Origin: Aquila chrysaetos chrysaetos
Taxonomy: Eukaryota; Chordata; Aves; Accipitriformes; Accipitridae
NCBI RefSeq assembly: GCF_900496995.4
Contig: NC_044018.1
Span: 30,275,825-30,339,824, forward strand
Length of the DNA stretch: 64,000 nt
Reading direction: 5' to 3'
Positions 4,316-57,594 of this stretch are shown in pieces; the stretch's first letter is position 1, and every line of letters starts with the position of its first letter. Both the position numbers and the translations under genes were made by a program. The notes beneath the pieces were generated by a model, which was not told where the DNA came from, ran no database searches, and saw only the letters and a list, made by a program, of their open reading frames with translations.

Positions 4316-4498
4316 CTACGCCGAGCTGGGGGCGACATGGCCGTCGTTGGCCTCGCTCAAGTTGGCGGCCCACTCCTTCCTCTGGATGGTGCCCGTCTTC
4401 TCCTCGCGGAACTGCTGCCGCTCCTCCCGCGGGATCTTCACGGCGTGGTACTGCGGCACGGCCGGCGGCGCGTAGCGCGCCCGGCGGAAGAAGCCCAG
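4316..4498 (-). other. ITGA7: ITGA7 B-type cytoplasmic tail exon
   Basis: Terminal exon encoding 60 residues from [20 protein letters not shown] through [18 protein letters not shown] to a stop at 4316. It matches the membrane-proximal half of the human alpha-7B tail. It has GFFRR instead of GFFKR and lacks the long DGHP-rich extension of mammalian alpha-7B. It is used when the A exon is skipped. Confidence 0.9.
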
Positions 4499-21999: not shown

Positions 22000-23340
22000 C
22001 CCTACAGCACCCGTACATCCCCCAGCACAAACCTCTACAGCACCTCGCACCCCCAGACAGGCCCCTATAGCACCCACAGGTGCCCAAACCTCCAGCCAGG
22101 CTCCCATAGCACCCACAGACCCCCAGCCAGGCTCCCATAGCCCCCACAGACCCCCAGCCAGGCTCCCATAGCCCACTCAGCTCCCCACGCCCTCAGACAG
22201 ACCCCTGTAGCCCTGACATGGCCCCGCCACCCTCACAGGCCACCACCCAGACCCCTATAGATCCTGTGGACCCCTGCAGCCCTCTCATGCCATCAGCCAG
22301 GCCCCTGTAGCCCCCTCAGGCACCCCTAACCCTCACCTAGACCCCTATAGCACCCATACATCCCCCAGCACAAACCCCTACAGCACCCCGCACCTCCAGC
22401 CAGGCTCCCATAGCCCCCACAGACCCCCAGCCAGGCTCCCATAGCCCACACAGACCCCCAGCCAGGCTCCCATAGCCCACTCAGCTCCCCACGCCCTCAG
22501 ACAGACCCCTGTAGCCCTGACATGGCCCCGCCACCCTCACAGGCCACCACCCAGACCCCTATAGATCCTGTGGACCCCTGCAGCCCTCTCATGCCATCAG
22601 CCAAGCCCCTGTAGCCCCCTCAGGCACCTCTAACCCTCACCCAGACCCCTACAGCACCAATACATCCCCCAGCACAAACCCCTACAGCACGCCACACCCC
22701 CAGACAGGCCCCTATAGCACCCACAGGTGCCCCAAACCTCCAGCCAGGCTCCCATAGCACCCACAGACCCCCAGCCAGGCTCCCATAGCCCACACAGACC
22801 CCCAGCCAGGCTCCCATAGCCCCCTCAGCTCCCCACTCCCTCAGACAGACCCCTGTAGCCCTGACATGGCCCCGCCACCCGCACAGGCCACCACCCAGAC
22901 CCCTATAGACCCCGTGGACCCCTGCAGCCCTCTCATGCCATCAGCCAGGCCCCTGTAGCCCCCTCAGGCACCCCTAACCCTCACCTAGACCCCTATAGCA
23001 CCCATACATCCCCCAGCACAAACCCCTACAGCACCCCGCACCTCCAGCCAGGCTCCCATAGCCCCCACAGACCCTCAGCCAGGCTCCCATAGCCCCCTCA
23101 GCTCCTCACTCCCTCAGACAGATCCCTACAGCCCTGACGTGGCCCCGTCACCCACACAGGCCACCACCCAGACCCCTATAGACCCCGTGGACCCCTGCAG
23201 CCCTCTCATACCCTCACCCAGGCCCCTGTATCCTCTCCCAGGCCTCTGTAGACCCCTCGGGTCCCTGTCTCCCCATCTAGGCCCCTACAAAGCCCCTACC
23301 CGGGCCCCCACAGCCCCCAATGGGACTCTACGGCCCCTAT
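22000..23340. repeat. Compound minisatellite upstream of BLOC1S1
   Basis: Four higher-order units of about 270-350 bases, each marked by CCTCAGACAGACCCCTGTAG (near 22191, 22494 and 22842; a variant near 23112). Each contains short sub-repeats of CCAGCCAGGCTCCCATAGCC. The array stops about 40 bases before the BLOC1S1 promoter motifs. Confidence 0.9.
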
Positions 23341-23443: not shown

Positions 23444-25279
23444 ATGCTGTCCCGGTTGCTGAAGGAGCACCAGGCGCGGCAGAGCGAACGGCGGGAGCTG
23501 CAGGGTGAGCCCGCCCCCCCCCGTCCCCATGGCGACCGACCCCGCCCCGCGCCCCGGGGAGCGGTCCGATTGGTGGCGGGTGCTGCCGCTCACCGCGGGG
23601 GGCCGCGCGGGCGCGTACCCCATTGGCCGGCGGGGCTGTCCGTCAAGGGTGGGAGAGGTTGGGGGGGGAGCCGTGGTCGTGAGGGGCCGAAGGGGGTGGC
23701 CGGCAGGGTGGAGCGTGATGTCACCGCCCCGCACGCTGACGTCACGCGGCTCCCTGCTGGCGTCACGGCCAGTGTGTGCGGGGTGGGGGGGGGGGGGTCC
23801 CGCCGCCCCTCACGGCCGCGTCCCCGCAGAGCGGCGGCGCAGGGAGGCCATCGCCGCTGCCACCCGCCTGACCGAGGCCCTGGTCGATCACCTCAACGTG
23901 GGGTGAGGACGAGACCGACCCCCCCCCCCCCCGAGCCGGGACCCCCCCAAACCCAGCGGCCCCTTGCCCCCAAAACCCCCGCCAGGGACCCCTTCACCCC
24001 CCCCAGCCCAAATCCCCTCCAGGGACCCCTTCCCCAGCCCCCCCAGTCCGGGACCCCCCCAACCTCCCAGCCCCCTCCTCCTCAAACCCCCTGGCCTGGA
24101 GCCCCCAAGCCCCTCCCCCCCCCCCCCCCGAGTCCTTTCCTCCCTGAAACCCCCAGCTGGGGACCCCCTGAGCCCCCCAGCACATTTTACCCCTGGAAAC
24201 CCCAGCCAGGGACCACCCCCCCCCCCAACCCTGGTGCCGCTTCCACCCCAAAATCCTGCCCAGGGACCCCCCCAAACCCCCATCCAGGGACCCCTGCCCC
24301 CCTAATGCTGCCAGCCAGGGACCCCCCCCCCAAGCCCCTTCCCCCACGTACTCCCAGCCAGGAACCCCCCCCCCCAAACCCCTGCCCAGGGACCCCCTCA
24401 ACTCCCTCCCCCCAACCCCCAGGGACCCCCTGGCACCCCAGTGCTTTGGCTTCCCCCCCCCCCAGCCCCCACCCACCCCCTTCCTGGGGACTCCCCCCTC
24501 CCCAGGGCCATAGGGGTGGGACCCCACACCCTGTGTGTGTGTGTCCCCCTCCCCGTGTCATGTGTCCCCCCCCCCCGGCAGGGTGGCACAGGCGTACGTC
24601 AACCAGCGGAAGCTGGACCACGAGGTGAAGACGCTGCAGGTGCAGGCAGCCCAGTTCGCCAAGCAGACTGGGCAGTGGATCACCATGGTGGAGAATTTCA
24701 ACCAGGCCCTCAAGGTGGGGGTCCCCGCCCCTGCCCCCCCCCCCTCCAGGGTTGCCCCCCCATCCCTGGCTTGGCGTGGGGAGGGGAGATTTCCCTCTGG
24801 GAAACATGGAGAAACAGCCCCATGGGAACCCCCCCCCCCGGTGTCACCGGTGCTGGCCAAGGGATGGAGTCTTCCACCCCACATGCACCAGGAGACCACC
24901 GCCGGCACTGCCTGGCGCCAGTGGGTGGGTGGGAGGGCCGTGTCCCCCCAGCCGCATCCCCCAGCCCCCCTGCTCGACGCCAGACCAGTCCGGCAGCACC
25001 ATCTGCCCGCTGTCGGATTGCACCAGGACGGGCAGCACCAGCAGGGTCCCAGCCAGCCCCGAGCCCCTGCAGGGCTGCGGCTGCCAGAGGGAAGCAAGGC
25101 AGGGCGGACCCCCGCCACCCCCGATCCCACCGGCAGCTCCCTGACAGTGCCCCCCTCCATTCCGGCAGGAGATTGGCGACGTGGAGAACTGGGCTCGCAG
25201 CATCGAGATGGACATGCGGACCATCGCCACCGCCCTGGAGTACGTCTACAAGGGGCAGCTCCAGCCCTCCTGCTCCTGA
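23444..25279 (+). CDS. BLOC1S1: BLOC-1 subunit 1 (BLOS1/GCN5L1), complete
   Basis: Small coiled-coil subunit shared by BLOC-1 (lysosome-related organelle biogenesis) and BORC (lysosome positioning), also linked to mitochondrial protein acetylation as GCN5L1. Four exons, 23444-23504, 23830-23902, 24582-24714 and 25169-25279, join in phase to 125 residues, the same length as the human short form. The start MLSRLLKEHQARQSERRELQ, the centre NQRKLDHEVKTLQVQAAQFA and the end EYVYKGQLQPSCS are nearly identical to human. It is transcribed away from ITGA7, with RDH5 following in the same direction 1.9 kb on. The intron at 23903-24581 is a C-rich minisatellite. Confidence 0.97.
23910..24570. repeat. 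C-rich minisatellite in BLOC1S1 intron 2
   Basis: Degenerate repeats of the form CCAGGGACCCCC plus C-runs spaced roughly 30-50 bases fill the intron. No other feature seen. Confidence 0.75.
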
Positions 25280-27150: not shown

Positions 27151-28884
27151 ATGTGGCTGTACCTCTTGCTGGCGGCACTGGCCTGGGTGCTGGGCTGGCT
27201 GGTGCGGGACCGCCGGACCCTGCCTTCCATCAAGGACAAGCACGTCTTCATCACGGGCTGCGACAGCGGCTTCGGCAACCTGCTGGCACGGCGACTGGCC
27301 CACCGGGGCTACCGGGTGCTGGCCGCCTGCCTGACCCAGAAAGGGGCCGACAGCCTCCAGCGGGGCTGCTCCGGTCACCTCCGGACCACCCTGCTCGATG
27401 TCACCCGCTCCGACAGCATCCGTCAGGCCGTCGAGTGGGTGCGGGCAGAGGTGGGCGAGAAAGGTGAGGGAGAGGGGGGCAGGATGGGACCCCGGGGAGG
27501 GCGGTGCTGTGGGGTGGGATGGGGTCCCAGGGGAGATGCCATGGGGAAGGATGGGACCCCAGGGGAGGTGCTGCAGGGTGGGATGGGGTCCCACCAGGGG
27601 CTGGTAAGGAGTAGGAGGGGTGGTCTCAGGAGAGAGGGTATAGGGCAAGAGGACAGGACACACCAAGGGATCCTGTAGGGCAAGACAGGGAGATCTGGGG
27701 GGGGGGGGGGGGGTATAGGGCATGGCTGGGGCTCCCCAGAGAGGTGCTGTGGGGCAGGATTAAGGGTCCCTGATAAGGTGTTACAGGGCAGAATGGGGGG
27801 GGGGTCCCACCAGGGCATCCTAAGGTGAAGGATGAAGGGGCTCCGGAGAGGGGCTGTGGGGCAAGATGGGTCCTGCCAGGGGGTGGGTGGGAGCCCGGGA
27901 GAGGGTCTATAGCGTGGGGGGGGGGTCCCTGCAAGGTGCTATAGGGCAGGATGGAGGGGAGGGTCCCACCAGGGCACACTGGGGAGAGGGTGGGGGTCCC
28001 AGGAGAGGTGCCACGGGGCAGGGATCATGGCCAACATCCCCGACCTCGCGTGTCCTGTCATGTCCCGTCCCCCCCCCCCACCTCCAAGGTCTCTTTGGGC
28101 TGGTGAACAACGCCGGGGTGGCCAACCCCATCGGCCCCACGGAGTGGATGAGGATGGAGGACTACCGCCAGGTCATGGCCGTCAACGCCTTCGGGGCCAT
28201 CGAGGTGACGCTCCAGTTCCTGCCCCTGCTGAAACGGGCGAGGGGCCGCGTGGTGAACACCTCCAGCGTGCTGGGTCGCCTCTCCGCCAACGGCGGCGGC
28301 TACTGCATCTCCAAATACTGCATCGAGGCCTTCTCCGACAGCCTGCGGTGGGTGCCGGCCCCCCCGCCAACCCGCCCCGCAGCCCCCCCACCCCGTACCC
28401 TGACGGCCGTGCATCCCGCAGGCGTGACATGTACCACTTCGGGGTGAAGGTCAGCATCGTGGAGCCCGGCTTCTTCAAGACGGCGGTGACCAACTTGGAG
28501 AGCATCGAGGCGTCCCTGCGCCAGCTCTGGGACCGCCTGGCGCCCGAGACACGGCTCAGCTACGGCGAGGATTTCTTCCACAAGTGTGAGTAGGGAGTGG
28601 GGGGGCACCCGCTGCCTCAGTTTCCCCTGCCTGACCCCCCCACCTCCACTCCCCCACCAGACCTCAAGGTGCAGCGGCTCATCATGAACGTCATCTGCGA
28701 CGCCGACCTCGGCAAGGTGACCCGCTGCATGGAGCACGCGTTGGGCGCCCGGCACCCACGCACCCGCTACAGCGCCGGCTGGGACGCCAAACTGCTCTGG
28801 CTGCCCGCCTCCTACCTGCCCGCCTGCCTCGTCGACTTCGCCCTGGCCACCATCCTGCCCAAGCCGGCCCACCGCGTCCGCTAG
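27151..28884 (+). CDS. RDH5: 11-cis-retinol dehydrogenase (RDH5), complete
   Basis: Short-chain dehydrogenase that oxidises 11-cis-retinol to 11-cis-retinal in the retinal pigment epithelium, anchored in the smooth ER. Four exons, 27151-27463, 28089-28347, 28422-28585 and 28661-28884, give 319 residues (human 318). Visible features: an N-terminal membrane anchor ([17 protein letters not shown]), the cofactor loop [12 protein letters not shown], the catalytic serine in NTSSVLGRL, the YCISK active-site pair, VEPGFF, and a C-terminal hydrophobic anchor with [20 protein letters not shown]. Similarity and location next to BLOC1S1 distinguish it from RDH7/RDH16-type paralogues. No truncation or frameshift was seen. 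Confidence 0.96.
27478..28010. repeat. G-rich minisatellite in RDH5 intron 1
   Basis: Repeats around GATGGGACCCCAGGGGAGGT and GTGCTGTGGGGCAGGAT, about 50-60 bases apart, fill most of intron 1. Confidence 0.75.
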
Positions 28885-29704: not shown

Positions 29705-32521
29705 CTACATGACCTCATAGCCGCTGCGGATGCCCTTCATCAGGCAGCAAGCGAAGATGATGCCCAGGATCTGGAAAGGCAGAGGGGAGGGGGGTGATCC
29801 CCATCCTGTACGGCCCCCCCCACAGTGGGGGACGGGCCACAGCCCCCCACGGGGCAGGGTCTCAGCCCCACATCCTACCTCGAAGAAGGCGATGCCCAGC
29901 GCAACTGCGGCCACAATGAGGATGTTCTTCTTCATCCAGGCTTCAATGCTCTGGAGGCAGCCCTGGGGGAGCAGAGGGGCTCAGGGGGTGGCCGGACCCC
30001 CAGGGCATGGCAGGGGGGGGGGACGACGACCACAGGGTGTGGGGGTCTCACCTTCTCATTGATGGTAGCGGGGCTGGGGTGGATGTTGCAGGAGGTGGTA
30101 TTGATGTGGCAGCAGGACCGGGGCACCGTGTCGTTGACCTTGAACCGCTCGATGGTGAACCAGTCGGTGTAGTTGTTGGCTCCGCAGCAACTGAACTGCC
30201 GGGGGGGGGGGGGGGGGAACCTCAGGGGGTCGGAACCCCAGACACCCATGTCCCATCCCGTCCCCCCCCAAGGCCATCCCTTTACTCACATCCCTCTGGA
30301 GCTCGTCCACTGCCTCCGTCAAGGGTTTGTCGTCCCCGTACTTGCGCATGGCGTCCCACAGCCCTTCCTCCAGCACCGAGCGGACCTGAGGGGGCCGGGG
30401 GGGGGTCAGAGAGGAGCGGGGGTCCGCAGCACCTGGCTGGGTCTGCGCCCCCGTCTCCCCACGCGTCCCCACCTTGTCCTTAAAGACGTATCCGGCGATG
30501 GCGGCGGCGATCTCCACCAGGAAGATGATGCTGAGCAGGACGGCGAACTGCAGGGGGGCAACAGGGTGCGGGTCAGGGTGGGGGGCTTAAGGTGGGAGAG
30601 GTCGGGTTGGGGGTCGGGGGGGCGGTCAGGGTGCTCACCGTGGTGACCATGCAGTAACTCTCCTTCCAGGCGCCGCAGCAGCCGAAGAAGGAGATGAAGA
30701 AGATGATGATGCCCAGCACCAGGATGGCAACGGGGGTGCTGGAGGCGGAGGAGCTGCTGACCGTCAGCGCCTTATCGAGGGCCGTCTGGGCGTAGATGCC
30801 GATGGCGATGAGGGCCACGCCGCACACCTGGGGGGGGGCGGAGGGGGGGGCAGAGGGAATTGGGGTGCAGCCACCAGCCCCCCAGAACCAACAGGGTGTG
30901 GGTGTGTGGGCGTCACCCACAGCTGAGCGTCCTCCCTTTCCGGGGAGTCGAGCAGCTCTGGGGTTTGGCTGCGAATTGGGGGGGACCCCCCCTTCCTGGA
31001 GGTGATGGGGTGGGGGGGTGGATTTTCTCTGCCCCCCCCCCCCCCCCCCCTTCCAGCCCAGCCCAGTGCCACCAGCAATGTCCCCATGGGGGTACGGCAG
31101 TGGGAGGGGGCCCCCGGTTCTGCCCCATGGCAGGACGCTCCCCAGCCCCGCTGCGGCGAGGGGGGGGGCCGGGCTGGCGGCCGCAGGAACGCCGGGAAGT
31201 CCGGCCTTCCGGCCACGGCGAGAGGCCTCGGAGGGGGGGGGACACCAAGCACCAGCCCCCCAGCCAGGGGGGCCGCAGGCAGATCGGGGGGTGCTGGGGC
31301 AGGGGGGGCATGCCAGGCACATCCTGTCCCGGGTGGGGGGGGTCACCAGCAGCCCCACTCCCACGGGAGCCAGGATGCCCAGGGCTTTTCCCGATGCTGG
31401 GGCAGGAGCGTCCATCCTGCCCTGTCTCCGGCACCCCCCCACCACCACGGGTGGGACCCTTCCCACGGCCTCAGTTTCCCCGTGGCAGTGGGGAGCCCCC
31501 CCGGGCTGCCACTCCCCCCCCCCCCCCCGCCCCAGTGCCGCTGGCCCTGTTTGCTCACTGGGTGTGGGTAAACAGCGCGGCCCAGCCGCCCGCTGCACAA
31601 ACACTCCCGGTGGCGGGGGCCGGGGGGGGCTGGCGCCGGTGTCCCCATCATGTCCCCCCCCACTGCTGGCGGGTGGCCCGAGCCCCCCCCCCCCCAGCCC
31701 TCCAGGGGTGACTCAGCCCGGCAGGATCAGGGTGGGGACTGGGACGAGTCACTCCTTGCGTGGGGGGACGGGATGACGGCTGGGAAGGCGCCTGCCCCCC
31801 CCCCCCCCCCCACCCCACTACGGCCGTTGGGCTCCTCGTGCCTCTTTCTTCACCCCAACTTCCCCAAACCCGCGCCCTGTCCTGCGTGGGGACCCCGGCC
31901 AGGGGCAGCCGGGAACTGCGGGGCCTGGGGGGACCCGGCCACCCGTGGGGTCCCCACCCTGACCTTGGGGCTCGGCTTCCCTTGGCCAGGGTGTGCCAGC
32001 CTCGCCCTGTCCAGCCTCGTTACCCCTGGAACCTACTGATGGCGGTGTATGGCCGCAACGCAGCCCGGTGCCAGGCTTCTCCCAGTGGGCAGCCTCACCC
32101 CCTGTGCCCCCCCCCGAAGCCCCAGCTGTGGCCCCCCCCCAGCACCCACTGCAGCCCCCCCGGGCAGCAGGGCCCCCCCCGGGGTCCCCATGACACGCAG
32201 CTCAGGGCCTGCAAGGGTGGGGAAGGGGGTGTCAAAGGGGCCGTATGGGGGGCGGAGAAGCTGACGGAGGGGGGGCAACACGGGGGAGGGCTGCTGCCTG
32301 CCATGGGGCCGGGGCGGGCCCGTCCCCGGGGGGGCCACGGCGGGGAAGGGCCCGTCTGCCCGGTTCTGCCGGCCCGGAGCCCCCTCCCCGGCTCCCCCGG
32401 TGTGCGTGTGTCCCCCCCAGTGCCCCTCCCGGTTCCCCCCGGTCCCCGCACTCACCCAGAAGATGAAGTTGAAGATAAAAACCAGGAACTTCACACATTT
32501 CATCCCGCCCTCGACCGCCAT
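29705..32521 (-). CDS. CD63: CD63 antigen (tetraspanin), complete
   Basis: Late-endosome, lysosome and exosome tetraspanin (LAMP-3). Seven coding exons join in frame to 239 residues (human 238): 32456-32521, 30639-30827, 30473-30547, 30290-30385, 30052-30195, 29879-29962 and 29705-29770. It begins MAVEGGMKCVKFLVFIFNFI. It has four membrane segments, the short-loop cysteines (FGCCGAWKESYC), and a large loop with the CCG motif (FSCCGANNYTDW) and PRSCC. There are several N-glycosylation sequons. It ends in GYEVM, the C-terminal tyrosine lysosomal sorting signal. A coding-exon acceptor sits 8 bases before the ATG. A noncoding first exon ends at a donor at 32725. INPP1-like lies upstream on the same strand, its transcript ending about 150 bases before the CD63 start. 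Confidence 0.97.
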
Positions 32522-32724
32522 GGTCCGTCCTGCGGGAGCCGCCGCCTCAGCCCCGGTACCGGCACCGCGCCCGGTCCCCGAGCCCCCCCCGTCCCGGTCC
32601 ACAACCCCCGCCCCGCTCCCGGTGTCCGAGCCCCGGCGTCCCGGGACCGCTCCCGGTGCAGCTCCCCACCCGCTCCCGCCCTCCCGGTACCGGTACCGGT
32701 GCTCCCCCCGCCCCGGGCGCTCAC

Positions 32725-33099: not shown

Positions 33100-33600
33100 A
33101 AAACCTGCACCCCTGCGGTCCCGGGGACCCTGTTCCCAGCCACCCCACACGCTGCACCCCCGGGGTCCCAGACACCCTATAATTTGCACCCTGGGGTCCC
33201 CGCTACCCTGTTCCCTGCCACCCTGTACCCTGCACCCCCGGGGTCCTGGGGACCCTGTTCCCTGCCACCCCGTACCCGGTACCCCTGGGGTCCCAGCCAC
33301 CCTGTAACTTGCATCCCGGGGTCCCGGACACCCCGTACCCTGCACACCCGGGGTCCCAGACACCCTATAACCTGCACCCCAGGGTCCCTGCCACCCCGCA
33401 CCCTTCACCCCGGGGTCCCTGCCACCCCATGTACCCTGCACCCCAGGGTCCCAGCCACCCTATAACTTGCACCCTGGGGTCCCTGACACCCTGTACCTCT
33501 TGGTCCCTGCCACCCCGGGGTCCTGGCAACGCTGTTCCCAGCCACCCCATACCCTGCACCCCAGGGTCCCTGCCACCCCCTACCTTACACCCCGAGGTCC
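33100..33600. repeat. ~30-bp minisatellite in the INPP1-like 3'UTR
   Basis: Units such as CCTGCACCCCGGGGTCCC and GACACCCTATAACCTGCACC repeat about 15 times between the stop codon of the INPP1-like gene and its probable poly(A) signal. Confidence 0.85.
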
Positions 33601-33614
33601 CGGCCGCCGTGGGC

Positions 33615-35113
33615 TCAGAGCCCCGGCACGGCGGCCAGCGCGGCCAGCACGGCCTCCAAGTGCCGGAGGTGGGCATAGGCCACGAGGCCACCCCGGTTTG
33701 CCCAGCGCTCGGCCCCCACCGCCCCCTCCACCGGGCGGTTGTAGACCAGCTCGGGGGGGGACCCGGTGTCGCCCGCTCGCCGCTCCCGCAGGGCCCCCGC
33801 CAGGGCCACGACACCCCCGCCCAGGGCCCGCAGGATGGCGTGGGGGGCACAGGCGTCCCAGGCGAAGGTGCTGCCCTCGGAGAGGACGTAGGAGTCCGCC
33901 AGTCCCAGGATGACGCAGAGCATCTTGTAGCCGGCACCGGCGGCGAAGCGCAGGCGGTCACCGCAGAGGGGGCCCAGGGCCGCCCGCACCGCTCCCCCCT
34001 CCGCTCGGCTCAGCACCACGCAGGGCGCGGGGCGCGGCGGCGGGGGGCTCAGCGAGCACAGCCGCGTGTCCCCGTACGCGACGCCCCAGTGGTACCTCCC
34101 CTGCCATCTGCGGGGACGGGGACCCTGAGCGAGGACCCCGTCACCGGGTCCCCAGGCTCTCCCCGGCCTTTGGGGGCCGGGATCCGGCCGTGCCCACCCA
34201 ACCGGTGCCGGTACCTGCGGGTCAGGGGGTCCCGGCGGAAGAAGGGCTCGTTGATGACGCCCAGCACGGGGCAGCCCGTCTGCCGGTCGTAGGCCCCGAC
34301 GAGCACCAGCGCCGAGCACAGCCCCGCCGGGGCGATGCCGTCGACGGGGGCCACGTCCTCGCGCCCGCCGATGTACTCGTTGGTGGAGTCTGCGGGTGCA
34401 GCCGAATTCACCGGGGCTCAGCTGCGGTACGTGGTGGTGGGGTCCCCAACCCACCCTCTCCCAGCACCCCCTCACCGATGGGGTCTATCCAGATGGCCAG
34501 GTCCTGAGGGGGGATGCTGAGCGCCACGCCGGCCAACTCCACGTCCTCCAGCGCCACGTCCCGGTGCACGGCGGCCGCCAGCAGCTCGGCGGCTGCCCGC
34601 TCGGGCTCCAGCACGGAGAGCAGCAGGGCGGCGGTGTCTCCCGGCGTGGCGCAGACCCGCACCGCCACCGTCTCCCCTGCCAGCACCCCGACATCAGCGA
34701 CGGCCCCGTGGCCCCCGGTGTTGGGGGGGGGGGGACAGGACCCCGGCTCCGCTGCTCCCCCGAGACTCACCCTGCCCGTTCTTGAACTCGTTGGACTCCT
34801 CGCCATGGATGTGGCCCCGCAGCTCGGGGAACTGGGGGGACAGGACAGCTCAACCGCGGCCCAGGGGGATGCGGGGGCGCCCTGGGGACCCCCCCAGGCC
34901 GTCCCTTACCTCCTTCCCCAGGTCGTGCTTGATGACCTCCTGGATGAGGACGTCCGCCAGCGTCTTGAAGTCCTGCAGGAACCTCCTGTTCCTGTCGGCC
35001 CCCGTCTTCTCGGCCACCAGCAGCTGGAAGAGGGGCTCTTCTCGCCGGCACAGCCGGGCGATGTGCGCCGCCTTCTCCGAGGCACCCACCAGGGCCTGCA
35101 GCAGCCCCGCCAT
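33615..35113 (-). CDS. Inositol polyphosphate 1-phosphatase-like enzyme, complete
   Basis: Member of the Mg2+-dependent, lithium-sensitive phosphatase family that removes the 1-phosphate from Ins(1,4)P2 and Ins(1,3,4)P3. Five exons, 34910-35113, 34771-34831, 34476-34676, 34215-34389 and 33615-34107, join in phase to 377 residues (human INPP1 399). Metal-binding motifs are intact: Asp54 in DFKTLADVLIQEVIK, Glu79/Glu80 in GEESNEF, and Asp153/Asp156/Thr158 in WIDPIDSTNEY, all at the same residue numbers as human INPP1. WDACAPHAIL supplies the last aspartate (residue 298, equivalent to human 317). The loop before it is shorter than in human. Similarity to human INPP1 is clear, roughly half identical in the first 97 residues by eye. 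It lies head-to-head with GDF11. In mammals INPP1 is linked to MSTN instead, so this is probably a second INPP1 gene. I give no symbol. Confidence 0.88.
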
Positions 35114-37245: not shown

Positions 37246-40200
37246 ATGGCCCCGGTATTGCTGTGGTTGCTGCCGTTGGCGGTGGCGGCGGCGGCGGGGG
37301 GGGGAGAATCGTTGGAAACGCAACCCCCCGCCTCGGAGCCGGTCTGCCCGGTGTGTCTGTGGCGGCGGCACAGCAAGGAGCTGCGGTTGGAGAGCATCAA
37401 GTCTCAGATCCTGAGCAAGCTGCGGCTGAAGGAAGCGCCCAACATCACCCGGGAGGTGGTGAAGCAGCTGCTGCCCAAGGCCCCCCCCGCTCCAGCAGCT
37501 CCTCGACCTCCACGACTTCCAGGGGGACTCGCTGCAGCCCGACGAGTACCTGGAGGAGGACGAGTACCACGCCACTACCGAGACCGTCATCAGCATGGCC
37601 CAGGAAAGTCAGTGCCGCCTTTGTTCCGCCCCGCCGCCGCCGCAAAGTTCGCCGGCGGACTCCCCCCCCAACCCCAACCCCGGGTCCCCGTTCCCCACCG
37701 TCCCCCCCTCCCGGTTCTTTCCCCCCCCCCCCCCCCCCGGCTCCCTTCTCCTCTCTCCCTTCGCTCGCCTGGTCCCGTGCGGCAGCGGGCATCGTCCCTC
37801 CGGGGTTCCCCCCCCCCCCCTCGGGGTGCCCCTTCTTCCCCCGCGGCTCCCCGTCCCCGTTCCCCCGCTCCCGGGGCTGCCCGGTTCCCCTTGGGGCTCC
37901 CCCCGCGTTCGCCCTGCGCACCGACCTGCAGCCCCCACCCGTGTCCGTGTGTCCCCCCCACACACCCCCATCCCATCCCCCGGGTGGCTCCGTGCGAGTC
38001 CCGGGGACACGGGGACAGCCCGGCCGGCAACCGGTACGGGGCAACGGGAACTGGGAGATGGGAGTGGGAATGGCTGCTGGGTGCTGGGACCTGGTAGCAG
38101 GGACTGGGACCCGGCACTGGGGTCTGGGACCCGTTACTGGGGACTGGGACTCAATGCTGGGGACTGGGACCCGACACTGAGGACTGGGAGCTGGTACTGG
38201 GAACTGGGACTCAGTACTGGGGACCGGGACCTGGCACTGGGGTCTGGGACTCGGTACTGGGGACTGGGATTCAGTGCTGGGGACTGGGACTCAGTACTGG
38301 GGACTGGGACCTGGCACTGGGGACTGGGACTCAGTACTGGGGACTGGGACCCAGCACTGGGGACGGGAACTCAGTACTGGGGACTGGGACTCGGCACTGG
38401 GGACTGGGACTCAGTACTGGGGACCAGGACTCAGTACTGGGGACCAGGACCTGGCACTGGGTACTGGGACTCAGCACTGGGGACTGGGACTCAGCACTGG
38501 GGACTGGGACTCAGTACTGTGGCCTGGGACCTGACACTGGGGACTGGGACCCGGCACTGGGGCCTGGGACTCAGTACTGGGGACTGGGACTCAGTACTGG
38601 CAATGGGGACTCGGCACTGGGGCCTGGGACACAGCACTGGTGACTGGGACTCAGTACTGGGGTCTGAGACCTGACACTGGGGACTGGGACCCAGCACTGG
38701 GGACTGAGACTCAGCGCTGAGGACTGGGACTCAGCACTGGCACTGGGACCTGGCACTGGGTACTGGGATCTGGTACCAGCACCAGCACTGGGACTGGTCT
38801 GGGGGCACAGGGCGGATGGCACGGTGACCTCCCGGTCCCCAGGGCCCCGCCAGGCAGCGGGTGCCAGCGCTCACCTCCTGCCGCGGCACGTGGCAGGGTG
38901 ACGGCAGGGTGACGGCAGGGTGTGCTGGGGACAGGCAAGCGCCCACCGCCCTGGGCCTGCCCGCGGCCGGCGCGGCGAGGGGCTGCGAGGGGTCCCCGGT
39001 GGGAAGGCAGCGAGGGGACGGGGCGCGGGGGCTTTGCCGCGCTGTGACGTGGCTCTGTCGGTCCGTCCGTCAGTCCGTGGGCGAGGAGGGGGCGAGCGGA
39101 TGGGGCGCCGGGGTGGCTGCACCCCTCACCTCTCCGTGCCTCAGTTTCCCCGTGTGTCCGGCCCCGGCTCCACCTGCTCCAGCAGCGGGATTAGGCTGCG
39201 GGACCCCCGAGGCGCGGGGGGCTGCGGGACCTCCGGGCAGCGGGGCCGGGGGGGCCGGGTGCGAAGGGCGAGCGGAAGGGAGGGAAGTGTGAGGCGCTGC
39301 CCCCCCCTCCTGCAGCCCCCCGACGAATTTCCTTCCCAGGCATTAATAGACTCGGGCGGCTTTGAAATTTTATTACCCATAAAATTGACAACACGCTGGG
39401 GTTTTCCTCCCTGCGCCGCGTTAACGCTCGCTGCCCCCGGCCCCCCCTCCTGCCCCTTAACAGCTCGGGGGCCCCCCAAAATAAATACCAGAGGGCAGCC
39501 CCCCTTCCCGGCCGGCCGGGCCCCGCACAGCCCGGCTCTGGGGGTCCCGCAGCCCCCGGCCCCGCAGCCGGATGCGCCGCTGGGTCCGGCTTGCCTCGGC
39601 CGCGGCCGCTCCGTTATTATTATGATTTTTCCTCCTTCCTCGCCCCCCCCCGTGGCAATTGTGTGGGGTTTTATGGTTCCTGAACAGAAGGAGGGAAAGG
39701 GCTTTATAGGCAGCAGAGCCATAAAGCTCTCGGGTTCCCCCCGGCCGCCCCCCGCCCCGGTTAATCCCAAGCCACCACCCCCAGCACCCCCCACCCCCCC
39801 CGGGTTTTTTCTTAACTGCAGAAGGAACCCGGGAAGGTTAATTGGGTCCTAAACCCATTTAGGGGCTACCCGTGACCCCCGCGACCTGCAGGGTGGAGGG
39901 ACCTTAATGAGGGGCGATGGGGGTCGGGGGGGGGGTTCGGGCCGGGCATGGGCCGGGGCGAGGGGCTGGTGGGGGCCGGGGGGGCCGCCCGTGCCGCTTG
40001 CTGCCCCGCCAGGGCCGGAGCCGCTCAAGGTCAGCGGGACACGGGTGGGAGCAGGGAAGAGGGGACATCACGGAGGCATCGCTGGCATGTGGCATCTCAG
40101 GGTATCGGGGGGGTCCCCAGGGTACCCGGGACCTGAGGGGGTCTCCGGTCCCCCGTGGCAGGCGAGGGGTTAACGGGGCAGAGGTGGGAGCCCCAAATCC

Positions 40201-43200
40201 GGCCCCGGTGGGAACAAAGAGCAGAGGGGGGGGGCTCGGGGCCACCCCCCTCCCGGCACATACTCAGCTGTGACCGATGTCCCGGTAACCTTTATCCCCC
40301 GTTGCCAGAGCGACCGGACCAGCATCCTGGCACCGCCGCAGCCCCGTGCCAGGAGCAGCCAGCGTGGCACAGCCCCCATGCTCGGACCCCCCTCCCCCGG
40401 CACCCCACACCTCCCTCTCGTCCCCGGACCCGCAGCCGCCCGGTGTCCCCCCGGGATGCCAGACCGAGTCCCGGGCCGGAGGAGGGTCGGCGGTGCTGCC
40501 GGTGCTGCCGTCGCGGCGGCGAGGGGCTTCGGTGTGAAGCCGGTGGCAGCTTTAAGGAACGTGCGCCGGCTCCAGCGCTGCTTTGGCATCTCTCACCCGG
40601 AGACCCTACAAAAACAACCCCACCGGCACCGACCTTGCCGCGGTGCCAGCCATGGCGAGCCCGGACCAAACCGGCACCGCGTCCCCTAAGGCCACCGTGA
40701 ACCTCTGTGCCACCGGGACCACGGGGGACCCAGAGCCCCTTGAGGTGGCCACCGGCCCAGACTGGGATGGTGACGGGTGGCAAAGCCCCCGCCAAGGGGC
40801 TGGGGGGCACAACCTGTCCCGGGGTTGGCAGCCGGGGTGGGACACCAGCATGGCTTCGAGGGGACGGGCAGCGCTGGAGCAGGGTGGAAACGTTCCCCAG
40901 GCAGGTCTCGGGGGAGCGCGGGTTTAATCGGGGGCTTGTGCGCAGCAAATTGCTGGGAGGCGTTTGGGCGGCCGGCGCCCGCGGCCCCCCAGCCCCTGTC
41001 ACTTTGGTTTATGTGCGGCGCGGCGGGGGGCTGGATGGCATTCCCGGGGCTGCGGCCGGTGTCGTGACCCCCATGTGTTCGGGGAGGCCTCGCACGCAGC
41101 AAATGGCCCCGCGCTGCAGCTGGGTGCTATTAAACCTGACCGGTGCGTGGCAGGGGGAGGGGGCTGCGCGGGCGACCGAGGGGGGGGGGAAAATTCCCAG
41201 CTCAATTTGACACAGATGTTTGCCGAGCAGGGAGGGCCAGCACGGGGCCGGCTCCAGCCGGGGTGCTGCCGCGGGGCTGGGGGAGGGCGGCCGGGGACCC
41301 CCCGGCTCCGAGGGATGCTTGTGCTGCGAGTGCTCGGGGTTGTCATCCCACCGGGGCTGGTGTCCCTGTCCCCGCGGCAGCCGCTCGCCTTCGCCACCTC
41401 TGAGAGCATCACCCTGGGCAGGACCTGCCAGGGTCCTGGGTGAAGCATCGCTGGCTCCTCTGCCGAGGCCGGCAGAGGTGCGGGGCTGCCCCGAAAACAA
41501 GCCCAGGGAGGGTGGGAGATGGGAGGGTGGGAGATGTGTGGGTGGGAGATGGATGTCCTCTAAGATGCAGAGCCGGCGGGACCGCTGGCGGGGAGCCTGT
41601 TGGCAGCCGGCTTGGTGCCAGGGACCCTCCTCGGGGCTTTGCCGCATCCCCGGGGGCTGCGGGACCGGGCGCGTTCCCGGCTCCGACGCAGGGATGTGTT
41701 GGGAACCGGCTGCCCCGGAGCAGGTGCTGCGGGGCCGGAGCCCCCCGCCCCGCTCAGCCCAGCCCCGCTCAGCTGGGGGCTCGGTCCCCGCAGCCCCCGC
41801 GGGGGATCATGAATCCCCGGTGACACGGGGTCAGGGGGCAGCCGGGGACCTTATTGCGAATGGAGGGGCAATGACCCCTGGGGCGGCCTCTGACCCGACC
41901 TTCAACTCCTAACGACCGAGGAGGAGCTCGACCCGACCCTGCGTCCGATGGAGGTTGGGGGGGGGGGTCCCGGGGCCGCCCCTGACACCTCCTTCCTCCC
42001 ACAGCGGACCCCGTGGTGCAGATCGAGGGCAACCCCCATTGCTGCTTCTTCAACTTCAGCCCCAAGATCATGTTCACCAAGGTGGTGAAGGCGCAGCTGT
42101 GGGTGTACCTGCGGCCAGTGCAGCACACCTCCACCGTCTACCTGCAGATCCTCCGCCTGAAGCCGGTGACGGAGGAAGGCAGCCGCCACATCCGCATCCG
42201 CTCCCTGAAGATCGACCTCAACTCCCGCATCGGGCACTGGCAGAGCATCGACTTCAAGCACGTGCTGCAGAACTGGTTCAAGCAGCCGCAGAACAACTGG
42301 GGCATCGAGATCAACGCCTTCGACCCCAACGGCAACGACTTGGCCGTCACCTCGCTGGGACCCGGGGCCGAAGGGCTGGTAGGTGGCCGTCGCGGGGTGG
42401 GCGCGCGGCTCGGGGTCCCCACGGTCCCCGGGGATCGGTGCCGCGTGGAGCTCGTGGGGCATCGCGACGGCCCTGGTGCTCGGCTGGGTGCGGGGCTCCC
42501 AGCCATCCCTGGGGAACTGGAGAGCACGGTGGGGGCAATGGGGACGGGCACGGGTGGTGGCAGAGCTCTGTGGGGCTGGTGACAGCTTGTGGGGACGGTT
42601 ACAGCTCCGTGGGGACAGTCACAGCTCTATGGGGACGATGACAGCTCCGTGGGAGCAGTCACATCTCTGCAGAGCTGGTGATGGCTCCGTGGGGCTGGTC
42701 ACAGCTCCACGGGGATGGTGACACCTCCATGGAGCCGGTGACAGCCCCGTGGGGCTGGTGACACCTCCATGGAGCTGGTGACAGCCCCGTGGGGACAATG
42801 ACGGCTCCGTGGGGCCAGTTATGGCTCCGCAGGGGTGGTCACAGCTCTGTGGGACCAGTTACAGCTGCATGGGGCTGGTCACAGCTCTGTGGGGACAATG
42901 ACACTTCCATGGGGCTGGCGACACCCCAGTGGGGCTGGTGACACCTCGATGGGGCTGGCGGCAGCTCCGTGGGGCTGGTGGCAGCTCTGCGGGGCCGTGT
43001 GGGACCTGGGGCGGTGGGTCAGCATGCGGGGCTCACGCCCCCCCCTCCCTCTCCCCCCAGCATCCCTTCATGGAGCTGCGGGTGCTGGAGAACAACAAGC
43101 GCTCGCGGCGGAACCTGGGGCTGGACTGCGACGAGCACTCGACCGAGTCGCGCTGCTGCCGCTACCCCCTCACCGTCGACTTCGAAGCCTTCGGCTGGGA

Positions 43201-43441
43201 CTGGATTATCGCCCCCAAGAGATACAAAGCCAACTACTGCTCGGGGCAGTGCGAGTACATGTTCATGCAGAAGTACCCCCACACCCACCTGGTGCAGCAG
43301 GCCAACCCCCGGGGCTCGGCGGGGCCCTGCTGCACCCCCACCAAGATGTCCCCCATCAACATGCTTTACTTCAACGACAAACAGCAGATCATCTATGGCA
43401 AGATCCCGGGCATGGTGGTTGACAGATGCGGATGCTCTTAG
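37246..43441 (+). CDS. GDF11: Growth/differentiation factor 11 (GDF11)
   Basis: Secreted TGF-beta family ligand that signals through activin type II receptors to SMAD2/3 and patterns the axial skeleton and trunk-tail transition. Three exons: 37246-37607, 42005-42378 and 43061-43441. The protein has a signal peptide ([16 protein letters not shown]), a propeptide with [20 protein letters not shown], the furin site RSRR, and a 109-residue mature domain starting [16 protein letters not shown] and ending [28 protein letters not shown] identifies GDF11 rather than myostatin (which has [20 protein letters not shown]). Exon 1 has C8 where the conserved frame needs C7 (about 37480), so the literal frame breaks after [11 protein letters not shown]. 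Downstream, [18 protein letters not shown] resumes in the +1 frame and splices correctly. Corrected length is 371 residues (human 407); the shortfall is mainly a shorter N-terminal low-complexity segment. Confidence 0.95.
38100..38780. repeat. 20-bp minisatellite in GDF11 intron 1
   Basis: About 33 copies of GGACTGGGACTCAGTACTGG and close variants, in near-perfect 20-base register, within intron 1. Confidence 0.95.
39340..39850. promoter_or_regulatory. AT-rich island in GDF11 intron 1 with caudal-type motifs
   Basis: In an otherwise GC-rich intron this block has CCATAAA (39377), TTTATGG (39670), CTTTATAGG (about 39702), CCATAAA (39719), ATTAATAG and TTATTATTATG. TTTATGG/CCATAAA resembles CDX/HOX binding sites. 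Possible enhancer, motif evidence only. The rest of intron 1 (39860-42000) shows no repeat array or exon. Confidence 0.3.
42580..42985. repeat. ~20-bp minisatellite in GDF11 intron 2
   Basis: About 20 imperfect copies of units such as CTGGTGACACCTCCATGGAG and CCGGTGACAGCCCCGTGGGG lie in the short intron between GDF11 exons 2 and 3. Confidence 0.9.
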
Positions 43442-51500: not shown

Positions 51501-53280
51501 TCCCAGCTGCGGGAACAGCGGCACCGAGCCAGGAGGGACACTGGCCACGCTCATCGGCTCCGGCACAAGCGCAGGTGGAGGGCGGCAGTGGGGGCTCGGT
51601 GCCGTCCCTCCTTGGGCTCATCCACACTTCCAGGGTCCACTCTTTTGTATCCCGATTTTTGTGAATTTGAACAAAAGACTTTTCCAACCCCCCCCCCAGA
51701 GGATCTGGGGGCAAGAGGCTGTTGGGAGACGAGGACGGCGCAACTGGAAGGGACATGTTGGCACCGGAGTGTGCATCCCCCCCGCCGCACACCTCGCTCC
51801 TCACCCCATTGTGCAAACCCCCCGTTTCTCCCTCTCGTTCCCCCCTCGCCGGCCTGACCTATCATCCCACTCACATTTACAGCCCAAGCGTCTGCTGTGA
51901 AAAGTGACTTCATGCTGAATTTGGGCACCGCTCGGCGTTACCAGCTCTCACGCTGCAAGCCCCGGCCCTCCTTTTCTTTCGCTCGCTTTCCCACACTTTC
52001 CCCCGCTCATTGTGTGCCCGCTGCTTTTTTTCTTCCCCTATTCAGCCCAAATTAGTCACGAGCAGCCCCCAGCTTGGAGAGGAAAAATAAATTAGGTGGT
52101 GTTTTAAACACAGTGTGATTGGAATGATTCTCCCCTACGCCCAGGAGGGGAAAGCCTGGTGGGTGAAAGATGCAGCGTCCTCTACAAAACAGCCCCCGGC
52201 ACCTCCCCGGGGAGCCGGGGAGGGGGGGGGACAGAGAGCGACAGGCTGGGGACACCGGCACATCTGCACAGAGCTCCCGATTTTGGTACCACGGCCAAGG
52301 GAAACTCATCCCCAACGAGGGGAGGAGACAGTGTGAGGGAAGAGGAAAAGACAAGACGCACACGTCGCTTCACCGGCCCCAGGAGGAGATCAGCCAGGGC
52401 AGAACCACCACCAGGACGCCCCCGAGCAGAGGGGAGCGACCCAGGGAGGAGGACACGTGGCCAGGCAGGGCAGAAATGGGGCTGGGACCCCCACGCCGCT
52501 CTGGTCCCCGGGCCAGAAAGTGGAGCTGGTGGCGAAATCCGGAGTCCTCGGTGCTGCCCTTGGCTCAGAGGGAAGGCGATGGCATCCCACCATCGGAGCA
52601 GAAGTCCCACGTGCCATCATCAACGCTGCTGGAAGACAGGAGACAGCGCAGCCTACGGCGGCGGCTTCTCGCCCTCCAAGCTCAGGATCCAGCCACCAGC
52701 GACCTGCAGGCCCTGGAGAGCTCCCGGACCAGCAGCACCTCACGACACGGCAGTCCCCGGCTTGTCCCGTTGGCTGGAACCCCCAAGCTCTGACACAGAG
52801 GGACCTGAAGCAAGCAGACACGGCAAAGCCAAGAGCTATCTGTGCTTCCTCTCAAGTTCTACAACGATCCTTGGTCTACAGCACCGAACCATCGGCTGTG
52901 AGAAGCGGCGACCACCCTGTTACTTGTACGTAGTCCCAATTTGGGTTACGGCTGGGTCCCAGCTCTGAAGAGCCTGCGCGGTTCCCCGGGGAAGCAAGGA
53001 GATTGGCATCCGAATGAAGCAGCAAGGTCAATCTGGAGAGGCAAGGCAGGGTTAGGACTTTGGCCAGGCCACAAGAAGTTAATGTCAGGACAATCTCTAA
53101 CCGCTGGCGACGGCCCGGCCAGGCAGGGTCTCTGCCCCCCAGCCAGCACCGTGCAGGCAGGAGTGGCCGTGGCCAAGTCTCCATCTGCTCCAGCTCCCTC
53201 CCGGCAGCACGCTCCAGCCCCGAGCCTCAGCCGTGCCATGCATCAAACTGACAGATACCAGCATTGCCTTGGAGAAGCAG
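48545..53280. other. Spacer between GDF11 and SARNP
   Basis: No coding exon or RNA gene recognised. Long open frames, including 444 codons at 49404-50738, have no family resemblance and shadow frames on the other strand. GC content falls near the right end. Confidence 0.5.
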
Positions 53281-53281
53281 T

Positions 53282-53287
53282 TTTATT
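53282..53287 (-). terminator. SARNP: Probable SARNP poly(A) signal
   Basis: TTTATT on the + strand (AATAAA on the - strand) with AT-rich, 3'UTR-like sequence on its transcript-upstream side, including an A/T tract at 53407-53430. No nearer AATAAA or ATTAAA was seen after the SARNP stop, which would make a 2.35 kb 3'UTR. Confidence 0.5.
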
Positions 53288-55639
53288 ATGAAACCGAGAA
53301 TGAAATGCAGTGTTTGCCCTGGCACACTACAAAACATTTCAAGCAAATAACCAGCAAAAAGATCGTGAGCCAAATAGAAAATACATCTTACAAAATCTGA
53401 CATACAAAAAAAAAAAAAAAAAAAAAATCAGAATAACGTTATTACATTAAATCAGGAAGGATCAAGAGAGCTTCAATTCACTCAGCCACTGACAACCCAA
53501 GACACACAACGTAACCCGGACCCTGTGGCTTTTAGCTGCCCTTTGGGAAAGTAAACAAACGTCCAGGGTATTGCTTAGAGTCAACGAGGGCACACGGACG
53601 CAGTCAGACTGCAAACATTAATGGAACAGAAGCAGTTTGAAGACTTCTACGTTAAAAAATATATATATTGCTTATCAAGAATCAGGTATAAGCCTCTGAA
53701 AAGCTAGATTTGTACACACACCCGTTGTTCTCTAGCATCTTAAGGAACCAAGCATGGACAAGGCAAACATCTCTCCGGTAAGAGGTTACAGTCAGAAATA
53801 AGAATCCTAGGATGTCAGTCTTCAGACAAGAGAAGGATTTCAGCCACAATGCCCACCTAAAAATCCAAGCAGACAAACAGATTTCTGCTTACAGACAGAT
53901 TTCTGCTTGCGCCTGGGGCCAAGGTATCCGTGGAGGGAAAGCTCTGCACAGGGTGGGAGATGCAGCAGGAACAAACGCTTGTGAGTGAAACCAATTCTCT
54001 AGGCAGGCAAAGGAGGAAAGGGCACCAGGCAGCTCCTCTCTGCCCCAGCGCTGCCAGTCCAACACCCCTGGCTTCGGGGTCCTACGCTTCTCCACTGCCA
54101 CCACTTCTTCCACCCGCGCAAGCCACCCCGGGGAGTGGCTCTTTACAGCCCCCCAAGAACAAAGGTGCCATCTGAAACACTAAAGCAGCAAGAAGCGCTT
54201 CACAAGCTGCGGCAGCGCTGCCTTTGGTGCGACTCAGCCAAATTTTTTCCGTAATTTCACCGAAACAGTTATGGATAATGCAGTAGAAGGAACTGTGTTC
54301 CTGCACAGCTACCAAGAACTTCCACACTCAAAACACAGGTCCCAGGATAACGCCGGTGCTCTCCTGCACTGCCTGGCAGCTCGGAGAAGACTGAGGCTTC
54401 TTCAGCAAGTCTGCGAGTTAAACCAGCTTGGCAGCTACTCTGAGGCAAAGAAAGGACAAGATAAAATCCAGCCTGAGAACAGACATCGGGCAAAACAACT
54501 CTGCTGGTTTGTCATTTAAGGAGAGAAATGTATCACTGACCTTCGAGGAACCTGGAAAATGTAGGTGAAACGCCATGAGACGCAGAGGGCTTAGCAAGGC
54601 AGGATAAATGAAGCAGTGAGAACAGGCTCCATTTGCAAATGCATGGCTACATTTTCCTCCTCGTTTGAGGACACCAGTCTTGATCTAGGGTTAATCGGCA
54701 ATTCTTGCTCTGACAATTCCCATTAGCCTCACCCTGGGAAGGAAGGCAGTCGTGAAACTGCCCCGCGTGTCAGCTATCACAGACGCCACTTCCATTTTTG
54801 AAAACATGAGACAATATAATTGAGAAAATCCTTCCCTGATGTTCAACCTGTCAGATCCCGGACGAGCCAGGGGTAAGATGCCAGAGATCCAGAGCAGGAC
54901 TCACGTAATGCATCGTGCTCTCGAGACGAGGCGCGTTCTTATCCCAGCTGCTGGGAAGAGACCATGATACAGCTGAACCTTGGGGCCTGTTTTCACGGGG
55001 TGGAGGAGGAGAGGACCAGGGCAGTCTGAGAGGTGGAGACGGCATTCAATGGCAAACAGACAACACATTTCAAACCAGTCCTTGCATTAGCAGCGTACTG
55101 GGAGTCCTTAAGCTAGAAAAGCAACTGCCGAGGGCAGAGCAAACCCTGCTCTACCTCCATTCCTCAATGTTTTCCCTTCCTCATTGCACAGCAGACACCA
55201 TGCTCCTACTGTTGCTCTATCTGCCTGTCTGTTTACCGGGCAGAGTTTGGCTCTCCCCTGCACAGGTGTTTCCCAGCGACGCTAGGAGGGCACCGGGACA
55301 CTCTCCATCTCTCCCTGTCGGACGGTACCTCCGGTGCGAGCTGCTGCAAATGACCCCACCAGCAGCTGGGAAACCACCGGACCGCAGGACTGCGGGCTAC
55401 CAGAGATGCACTGACAACAGTTTCTTCTTTTTGCTCAACTTTTCTTCATTTTTAAACGTCGTAACTTGAAAAAATAAGTAGAACAATCATACAACTACGG
55501 GGGATTCCCTGTCTACTCATCACTAAAACCTAGAGAAACAGTGTGGGAGTGAGAGAAAGTGGGGGGGGAAGAGAGAGAAAGAGTATGCACGCACTCGAGA
55601 GGCACACTGCAAATGGGCTGAAGCTAAAAAGGACCAGCA

Positions 55640-57594
55640 TCAGACGATCCCAAAACGTTCTGCTCTTTTCCTCTTCTTTGCCTGCAAAGAGGAATTACAA
55701 GAAAAAAAATCAAAACCAAAAAGAAACAAATTAACAAGTTCTTTAAAATGTCACACACAACCTGATGGAGAATTTATTAAAAATTTGGTATCGGCAACAC
55801 CACCAGAGCTCGGCAGCTCTGGCCCCCTCCTGAGCGCACCACCACCAAGTTAGTTCAAGGGAGCTACGAAGTTCTTCTTCTAACACTGGGACAAAGAGAG
55901 CCCCAAAATCAAGTAGCAGAAATATACAGTGCCTGAGATACAGTGCTGCTGAAGTCACTTCGTCTTGCTGGCAATGTGCTACAAAGGGGCTGAGCTGGGA
56001 ACAATGCCTACTTCAGAGGCCTGGAAACCCTTCCAGGCAGTGGGGAGGTGGGAAATGTAAAAGGGCAAAGGGTTAACACTCTCCTATTCATGGAAAAGGT
56101 GAGAGGGACACACTAAAACGCATTAAATATACTATTGCGTCTCTCAGATATGCCTTTAAGCCGATACACGAGGGGCGTATAAATCTTAATTTTTAGCAGG
56201 ATAAATAGCCCGGGGGCAACAGAAGCCCTAATCAAGAATCTCCAGGGGAAAGGTGCATTTGAGTGCACACAATACCAGTAAAAAGACCTTTTTGTTCCAG
56301 GCACAATCTCCAAGTGACCTAACGGAAAAGCATGGAATCCCTCGCCCAGCCGCCCCCTCCGTGCGGGCCGGAGGGGCTCATTCTCCCATGCTCTGCAGAA
56401 GGCTGGGAACGCCGCTTCCCGCTTCACGCGGGGCAGCGTTTCTGCAGTAAACCCAAAACAAAACACACACACAGACAAAAAAAGCCCCTAAACCCCACCT
56501 GAATTGTTGAGATTGCTCTTAGGAACCAAACAAAACCCACTTCTCGTCTGTCGAGCCCAGGAGCCATCTGGTTAAGCAGTTTCCAAGACCCAACACTCGC
56601 CCTGCCGCAACCTTTGCCATTTGATTGTTAACGCAGGAGTCCCCACCCCGGAGGGGTCCCTTTGTCCCCAGGAGAGGGGTCCCCGACTCCGGCTGATCCA
56701 CACTGGAGCCATATTTACGTGGCACCATAGGTGCGTATGGCACTCCCCACCTAACAATGTAGGAGCTACCACACCGGAGCACAGCCTGCATGGTGACTTG
56801 GAACAATTTGAAGCAGAAGAAAGTGTAAAAGTACATAAAAGAGCACAAAATTGCCCTGAGGAGCTTACAAATTTAAAAGATGGGCCAAAACCACAGAGGA
56901 CAGAACAAAGCATGGAGGAGAAAAAGCTGGAAACAGGGTCAGCATCTCAATCCTCATTATATTGTAGAGTCTCCAGGGACTTATTGATGAAGACCTACAA
57001 TAGCATCCAAGGGGAAGGAGAGGGTCCAGAAGCATCCAGGACACAGGGAATTACAGAGTACAAGGAGCAGAGAGAGAGTGAGTCAGCTCAAACCAAGGGG
57101 AGGGGGAACCAAGGTGGGAGAAACTGGAGTAGAGCAGATGCTTCCAGAAGAGGTGGGGGGCACATCTACACCATCCTGCAAGAGGAGGAGCTGGATGCCA
57201 ACACGTGCTGGCACGCTCCTGTGGCTTGGTAGACTCCAGAGCGGCCTATTTCCAGGAGGAGCCAGGGGAAAAGCCGCAACAGACCGGATGGCAGAAGCTC
57301 ATCATCGCTCACTGCCAAGGCAAAGAGGCTGAGTGGCCACGGGAGCGCACCCACCCACAGCTCGGGGTCAGTCCCACGCTAGCCCAGGGGACTTGACGCT
57401 GAGCGAGGTCCCAGGTGTGCAGAGTCGTGCTGCCACCCCCGGGACCATCACTGCTCCCCTCAGCATCCTCGGCCGCTCCCCATCTGCTTAGAAAAAGGTT
57501 TTACCTCTGTGTCCTCTGTAGCTCCAGCCCCGGCAGAACTCGTTACAATGCCAAACCGCTCCTTTCTCTTCTTCAGTTTCTCATCTTCTTCACT
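55640..57594 (-). CDS. SARNP: SARNP (CIP29/Hcc-1), last two coding exons
   Basis: SAP-domain ribonucleoprotein, an RNA/DNA-binding partner of UAP56/DDX39B and ALYREF in the TREX mRNA-export pathway. Two exons: 57505-57594, encoding SEEDEKLKKRKERFGIVTSS through GATEDTE, and 55640-55681, encoding AKKRKRAERFGIV and stop. The repeated KRxERFGI motif is the C-terminal RNA-binding signature. Human ends GIA where this ends GIV. Splice sites and phases agree. Earlier exons, including the SAP domain, were not found up to 64000 and presumably lie beyond the right edge, since SARNP introns are long. Opposite orientation to GDF11, as in human. Confidence 0.9.
55682..57504 (-). other. SARNP: SARNP last intron
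   Basis: Intron with GT...AG borders read on the - strand. It contains a 203-codon + strand open frame (56621-57232) of unknown significance. No recognised repeat family. Confidence 0.6.

Follow-up and report, generated by a model that had tools for sequence, protein, structure and literature searches.

Inositol polyphosphate 1-phosphatase, INPP1, belongs to the enzymes of inositol signalling that are sensitive to lithium. According to the sections available of PMC7948987, the enzyme carries the motif D54...E79E80...D153PID156ST158...D317, and its 4-phosphate contacts are E269, G290, A291 (main chain) and K294 (side chain). The cattle gene lies in the order NAB1-NEMP2-MFSD6-INPP1-HIBCH-MSTN-PMS1-ORMDL1 (available part of PMC9334527), and the turkey block given in the excerpt of PMC8912253 comprises PMS1, MSTN, C2orf88 and HIBCH and stops short of the INPP1 interval. 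With respect to the fate of duplicated genes in birds, the accessible sections of Hron et al. 2026 (PMC12954441) report the loss of 29% of ohnologues from dot-chromosome paralogons, as compared with 0.4% from matching blocks. Its search was confined to ohnologues that have a human orthologue, its authors state that no pseudogenes of lost genes were encountered, and both INPP1 and GDF11 are absent from its main text. Among the open-licence literature matches listed, no title or opened passage gives an account of a second INPP1 gene, and in the printed passages that contain them INPP1B and INPP1L are passing names for miR-205 targets and SHIP2.

The window described here is a stretch of 64,000 nucleotides from Aquila chrysaetos chrysaetos (C15:30275825-30339824), taken from an assembly of 1.234 Gb in 144 contigs that was also searched as a whole. 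On its minus strand, at 35113-33615, the window holds an INPP1-like gene for a protein of 377 aa that is complete, with five exons, four GT-AG introns and a spliced coding length of 1134 nt (377 codons plus stop). The individual exons are as follows.

34910..35113, minus strand, exon 1: 204 nt, codons 1-68, with D54 (open reading frame, GT donor, bovine INPP1 alignment)
34771..34831, minus strand, exon 2: 61 nt, with E79 and E80 (AG/GT sites, alignment)
34476..34676, minus strand, exon 3: 201 nt, with D153, P154, I155 and base 1 of codon 156 (AG/GT sites, alignment)
34215..34389, minus strand, exon 4: 175 nt, with the remainder of D156, S157 and T158 (AG/GT sites, alignment)
33615..34107, minus strand, exon 5: 493 nt including the stop, with E250, G271, A272, K275 and D298 (AG site, stop, alignment)

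The initial annotation had described a complete five-exon INPP1-type gene at 33615..35113, and its coordinates proved exact to the base. As the gene has introns (five exons, with GT-AG introns between them), an origin as a retrocopy is ruled out and was rejected.

In terms of identity, the best PDB match of the window protein in phmmer searches is bovine INPP1 (1inp; E = 2.5e-111, residues 1-371). The runner-up family is BPNT1 (3'(2'),5'-bisphosphate nucleotidase), a related phosphatase whose match is partial (E = 2.2e-15, residues 142-318 only). The full-length similarity to INPP1 is therefore well above that to other Li+-sensitive phosphatases, and a BPNT1-type assignment was rejected on these E values. 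The protein also matches Pfam PF00459 at 92.3 bits (cut-off 27), and 192 of its 369 residues aligned with bovine INPP1 are identical (52%). All 14 of the active-site positions checked in this alignment are conserved. Specifically, the complete INPP1 motif is present, with D317 appearing as D298, and the 4-phosphate contacts E269, G290, A291 and K294 are found as E250, G271, A272 and K275. The bovine protein differs in its length, 400 aa as compared with 377 aa in the window protein, which is without mid-protein stretches of 16 and 3 residues. Judged from its sequence, the window protein is predicted to act as a 1-phosphatase on Ins(1,4)P2 and Ins(1,3,4)P3, dependent on Mg2+ and inhibited by Li+.

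The second difference from the bovine gene concerns location, since bovine INPP1 lies beside MSTN and HIBCH, whereas the window gene lies beside GDF11 and a CD63-like gene. The genes in the window that were named by Pfam or PDB matches are MCRS1, an integrin alpha gene, BLOC1S1, a short-chain dehydrogenase, a tetraspanin and GDF11, and those closest to the INPP1-like gene are placed as follows.

24595..25264, plus strand, BLOC1S1 exons (Pfam GCN5L1; PDB BLOC-1 subunit 1, E = 1e-5)
28091..28734, plus strand, RDH5-like short-chain dehydrogenase exons (Pfam adh_short for 28091-28345)
29876..32524, minus strand, CD63-like tetraspanin gene, exon-like stretches only, with its extent from a crude scan (Pfam tetraspanin, the second match below the curated cut-off)
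37246..43423, plus strand, GDF11, approximate extent covering propeptide exons and mature domain (Pfam TGFb_propeptide, TGF_beta)

These flanks, a CD63-like gene and GDF11, bear out the earlier placement of the gene between CD63 and GDF11. The sole PDB match of the tetraspanin is CD63, a weak one (E = 0.048), and the stretch 28426-28590 of the RDH5-like gene gave no Pfam match; the names RDH5 and CD63 lean partly on the human order, which we take to be ITGA7-BLOC1S1-RDH5-CD63-GDF11. The integrin alpha gene was named by Pfam, and a PDB search for a more specific name returned no match. For the TGF-beta gene, GDF11 (2.1e-74) leads GDF8 (6.3e-74) in the PDB only narrowly, but the other close copy in the genome, on C6, is clearly GDF8 (2.4e-90 versus 1.5e-72 for GDF11). 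SARNP and ORMDL2 were not seen within the window in a crude scan, and SARNP, which in human presumably sits between GDF11 and ORMDL2, was not recognised by that scan at 43600-64000. An ORMDL-family gene does lie at C15:30362048 on the plus strand, about 22 kb beyond the right end of the window. As a separate observation, MCRS1 adjoins the integrin alpha gene here (window positions 372-2750 and 4343-12946); we assume human MCRS1 and ITGA7 to be several Mb apart.

The assembly was then surveyed for other INPP1-type genes. With the window protein as query, all five matches at E <= 0.001 are its own five exons. With bovine INPP1, the five matches at E <= 10 comprise four window-gene exons and one BPNT1-like exon on C13 (E = 0.106). 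PF00459 has 10 matches in the assembly, one of them a window-gene exon and none of them on C6. The bovine INPP1 query detects the window gene at 4.2e-36 with an identity of 52%, so any intact copy closer to it that the assembly contains should have shown. The window gene is the only intact INPP1-type gene found in this assembly, and its product would be the only enzyme of its kind in this genome. The initial annotation had expected birds to have two 1-phosphatases; in this assembly that expectation fails, as the window gene is the sole intact INPP1-type gene and the MSTN-side copy is a two-exon relic. On these grounds, two working INPP1-type genes were rejected for this assembly. Other places of the inositol-phosphatase family were noted in passing: the BPNT1-like exon is at C13:8295218-8295346 (named by eye against PDB matches), and C4 has three further places, at 31634466-31638762, 58294130-58306662 and 42249315-42249572.

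The relic was located in the MSTN region, examined over 200 kb (C6:18738001-18938000) that contain no N. The features of this part of C6 are listed below, the ORMDL-family gene lying outside the 200 kb.

C6:18647047, minus strand, ORMDL-family gene
C6:18740631-18740987, minus strand, MSTN (PDB GDF8 2.4e-90 versus GDF11 1.5e-72)
Offsets 51930-96877 of the 200-kb region, minus strand, HIBCH (11 tblastn matches with a HIBCH query)
C6:18848657-18848839 (offsets 110657-110839), plus strand, INPP1 relic exon 1 (frameshift-tolerant alignment)
C6:18850098-18850159 (offsets 112098-112159), plus strand, INPP1 relic exon 2 (frameshift-tolerant alignment)
C6 from 18865647 (offset 127647), plus strand, MFSD6-type open reading frame of 516 residues, MFS-type, which fits MFSD6
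C6 beyond the MFSD6-type open reading frame, minus strand, NEMP-family exon
C6:18935632, plus strand, NAB gene

The gene order is the same as in cattle, and the relic, between HIBCH and the MFSD6-type gene, occupies the cattle INPP1 place. A different stretch that had been taken for a piece of MFSD6 (L040:868-1005) gave no Pfam match, and the MFSD6-type call stands on the open reading frame listed above. Relic exon 1 runs up to the boundary at residue 68 and is followed by GTAAGA, while exon 2 is preceded by TTTAG and followed by GTAAGT and has 62 bases versus 61 in the window gene. An in-frame stop interrupts exon 1, and exon 2 has a frame break, since it takes two frames to read it. The MSTN locus thus shows what is expected of an INPP1 pseudogene: exons homologous to those of INPP1, at the place where the gene would lie, that carry disabling changes. 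The exon 1/exon 2 boundary is the same as in the window gene, which, together with the five exons of the latter, identifies a DNA-level duplicate. For exons 3-5, bovine and window queries scored no higher than the maxima of 40 shuffles on the plus strand of the 44-kb HIBCH-MFSD6 stretch, and bovine queries gave no stand-out peak on either strand of the 200 kb. A second INPP1 beside MSTN, which the initial annotation had suggested looking for, is accordingly represented by a decayed exon 1-2 copy and by no intact one. That annotation had also named a translocation, with no INPP1 near MSTN, as the reading that would undo its proposal. This describes the locus on the surface only, as a decayed copy is present that bears more resemblance to bovine INPP1 than to the window gene.

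The relic was scored with a frameshift-tolerant aligner; the controls were the rest of the 200 kb on both strands and 40 shuffled queries run against the surrounding 44 kb (the HIBCH-MFSD6 stretch). The bovine query reaches 85 for exon 1 and 66 for exon 2 at the relic, its best scores elsewhere in the 200 kb on both strands are 48 and 41, and the shuffle maxima are 48 and 39. The window-protein query performs differently. Its exon 1 score of 49 at the relic is not significant (52 elsewhere in the 200 kb; shuffle maximum 56), and its exon 2 score, also 49, is above the shuffle maximum of 37, but a place on the opposite strand reaches 48. One could read the relic as a chance match, with the MSTN-side copy lost without trace or never present, given that short decayed stretches are prone to over-reading and that the window-protein query ranks the relic only second for exon 1 and barely first for exon 2. 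We regard this as extremely improbable: bovine exons 1 and 2 both peak at the relic, far above the rest of the 200 kb and the shuffles, and the two relic exons are in order, on the expected strand and 1.3 kb apart, with their splice sites retained.

The same region bears on whether an intact MSTN-side INPP1 is simply absent from the assembly, so that the genome would encode two working 1-phosphatases. Assemblies can drop sequence, and INPP1 is named in chicken and goose data, without a locus in the parts available of PMC13356744 and PMC11995638. Nonetheless, the 200-kb MSTN region contains no N, and the place of cattle INPP1, from HIBCH to the MFSD6-type gene, is occupied by the exon 1-2 relic with its in-frame stop. 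This explanation is in our judgement very unlikely.

With respect to affinity, 75 columns could be compared, and the relic matches bovine INPP1 in 40 of them and the window gene in 30. Bovine INPP1 and the window gene differ from each other in 32 columns; there the relic sides with bovine in 14, with the window gene in 4 and with neither in 14 (one-sided binomial P = 0.015), a small split from an alignment that was built on the bovine INPP1 query and is therefore biased towards bovine. These comparisons suggest that mammalian INPP1 probably has its orthologue in the relic, with the window gene as the outlier. The comparison is a three-way, unrooted one of the relic, the window gene and bovine INPP1 as the sole sequence relative. 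A scan of viral contigs for a stray vertebrate INPP1 that could serve as outgroup gave 251 pattern-matching stretches and no relative.

Gene order supplies a second line of evidence. On C15 the order is INPP1-like (minus), GDF11 (plus), ORMDL (plus), and on C6, once flipped, it is relic (minus), MSTN (plus), ORMDL (plus). Within a single genome, three gene pairs therefore have the same order and the same orientation, as in a paralogous block that carries other duplicate pairs alongside the INPP1 pair. The names ORMDL2 for the C15 gene and ORMDL1 for the C6 gene were assigned by linkage only, and a third ORMDL copy is present on C8. NAB-family genes also occur on the same two contigs (C15:30702079 and C6:18935632), on opposite sides of the block, and the collinearity of the two blocks does not reach this pair. 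We take the block to be a 2R paralogon represented in human at 2q32 and 12q13, with the human GDF11 locus presumably lacking an INPP1 twin.

Because bovine INPP1 is the sole relative and the comparison is unrooted, a fast-evolving younger duplicate is compatible with the sequences alone. In this scenario, a lineage-specific DNA duplication or move set an INPP1 copy beside GDF11, where it evolved fast in a GC-rich region while the MSTN-side original decayed. A single intact copy was found in the assembly, the GC3 of the window gene is 0.944 and GC-richness can speed protein change, and the relic would show the same bovine lean if the window gene had changed fast under the influence of GC; the bovine-drawn alignment could add to that lean. 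Against this, the place and orientation of the copy are what the GDF11/MSTN-ORMDL duplication predicts, and a random move would seldom land there. The relic residues also side with bovine over the window gene by 14 to 4, and separate queries at the relic score 85 and 66 with bovine INPP1 as compared with 49 and 49 with the window protein. We therefore consider a younger duplicate unlikely.

Taken together, these observations make it highly likely that the window gene is an INPP1 paralogue from a duplication of the INPP1-MSTN-ORMDL block in 2R, the copies of which met opposite fates across lineages. The ohnologue proposal of the initial annotation stands in this respect, as position and orientation are those expected of a GDF11/MSTN-ORMDL block duplicate and the exon 1/2 boundary is that of the relic; its corollary of two 1-phosphatases does not. 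In the proposed sequence of events, the INPP1-MSTN-ORMDL chromosome block would have been doubled in the vertebrate 2R genome duplications, giving rise to an INPP1 pair. Mammals would have retained the MSTN-side copy, the gene called INPP1. The lineage of the eagle genome would have retained the copy beside GDF11, in a region that is GC-rich and resembles a dot chromosome, with its MSTN-side copy becoming a pseudogene. We infer both the 2R age and the timing of the MSTN-side loss. Reciprocal retention in its full form, or hidden paralogy, appears likely to us: the sole inositol 1-phosphatases of this lineage and of mammals would then be 2R duplicates and not orthologues, and this lineage would have kept the copy from the GC-rich, dot-type compartment, which is prone to loss, and lost the one from the compartment that is normally safe.

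This pattern can be set against the dot-chromosome losses described in the available sections of Hron et al. (PMC12954441). Both cases concern what became of 2R duplicates in avian regions rich in GC and dense in repeats, whereas in the eagle genome the dot-like copy survives and the other copy is lost but leaves a relic. Survival of the dot-type copy runs counter to the avian loss trend reported there, and, going by the search design set out in those sections, the INPP1 case would escape their loss count. If the copy described here is an old paralogue, lithium and inositol-phosphate data from such animals would not apply to mammals one to one, and the use of 'one-to-one INPP1 orthologues' would misroot the gene trees that rely on them. 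If reciprocal retention is true, databases are likely to label the GDF11-side gene simply 'INPP1'. The relic on C6 offers material from which the MSTN-side loss could be dated.

Two further features of the window were recorded. At 52 kb the GC content drops from 0.62-0.75 to 0.49-0.54, and at 52000-64000 no gene was recognised in a crude scan; this may be the edge of a former dot-chromosome segment. Long minisatellite arrays are present at 38084-38776, 42564-42997, 33134-33601, 22083-23230 and 6325-6845, one example between GDF11 exon-like stretches having a 20-base unit in 34.7 copies, and they recall the intron 'sequence stuttering' of chicken dot chromosomes described in the available part of PMC12954441.
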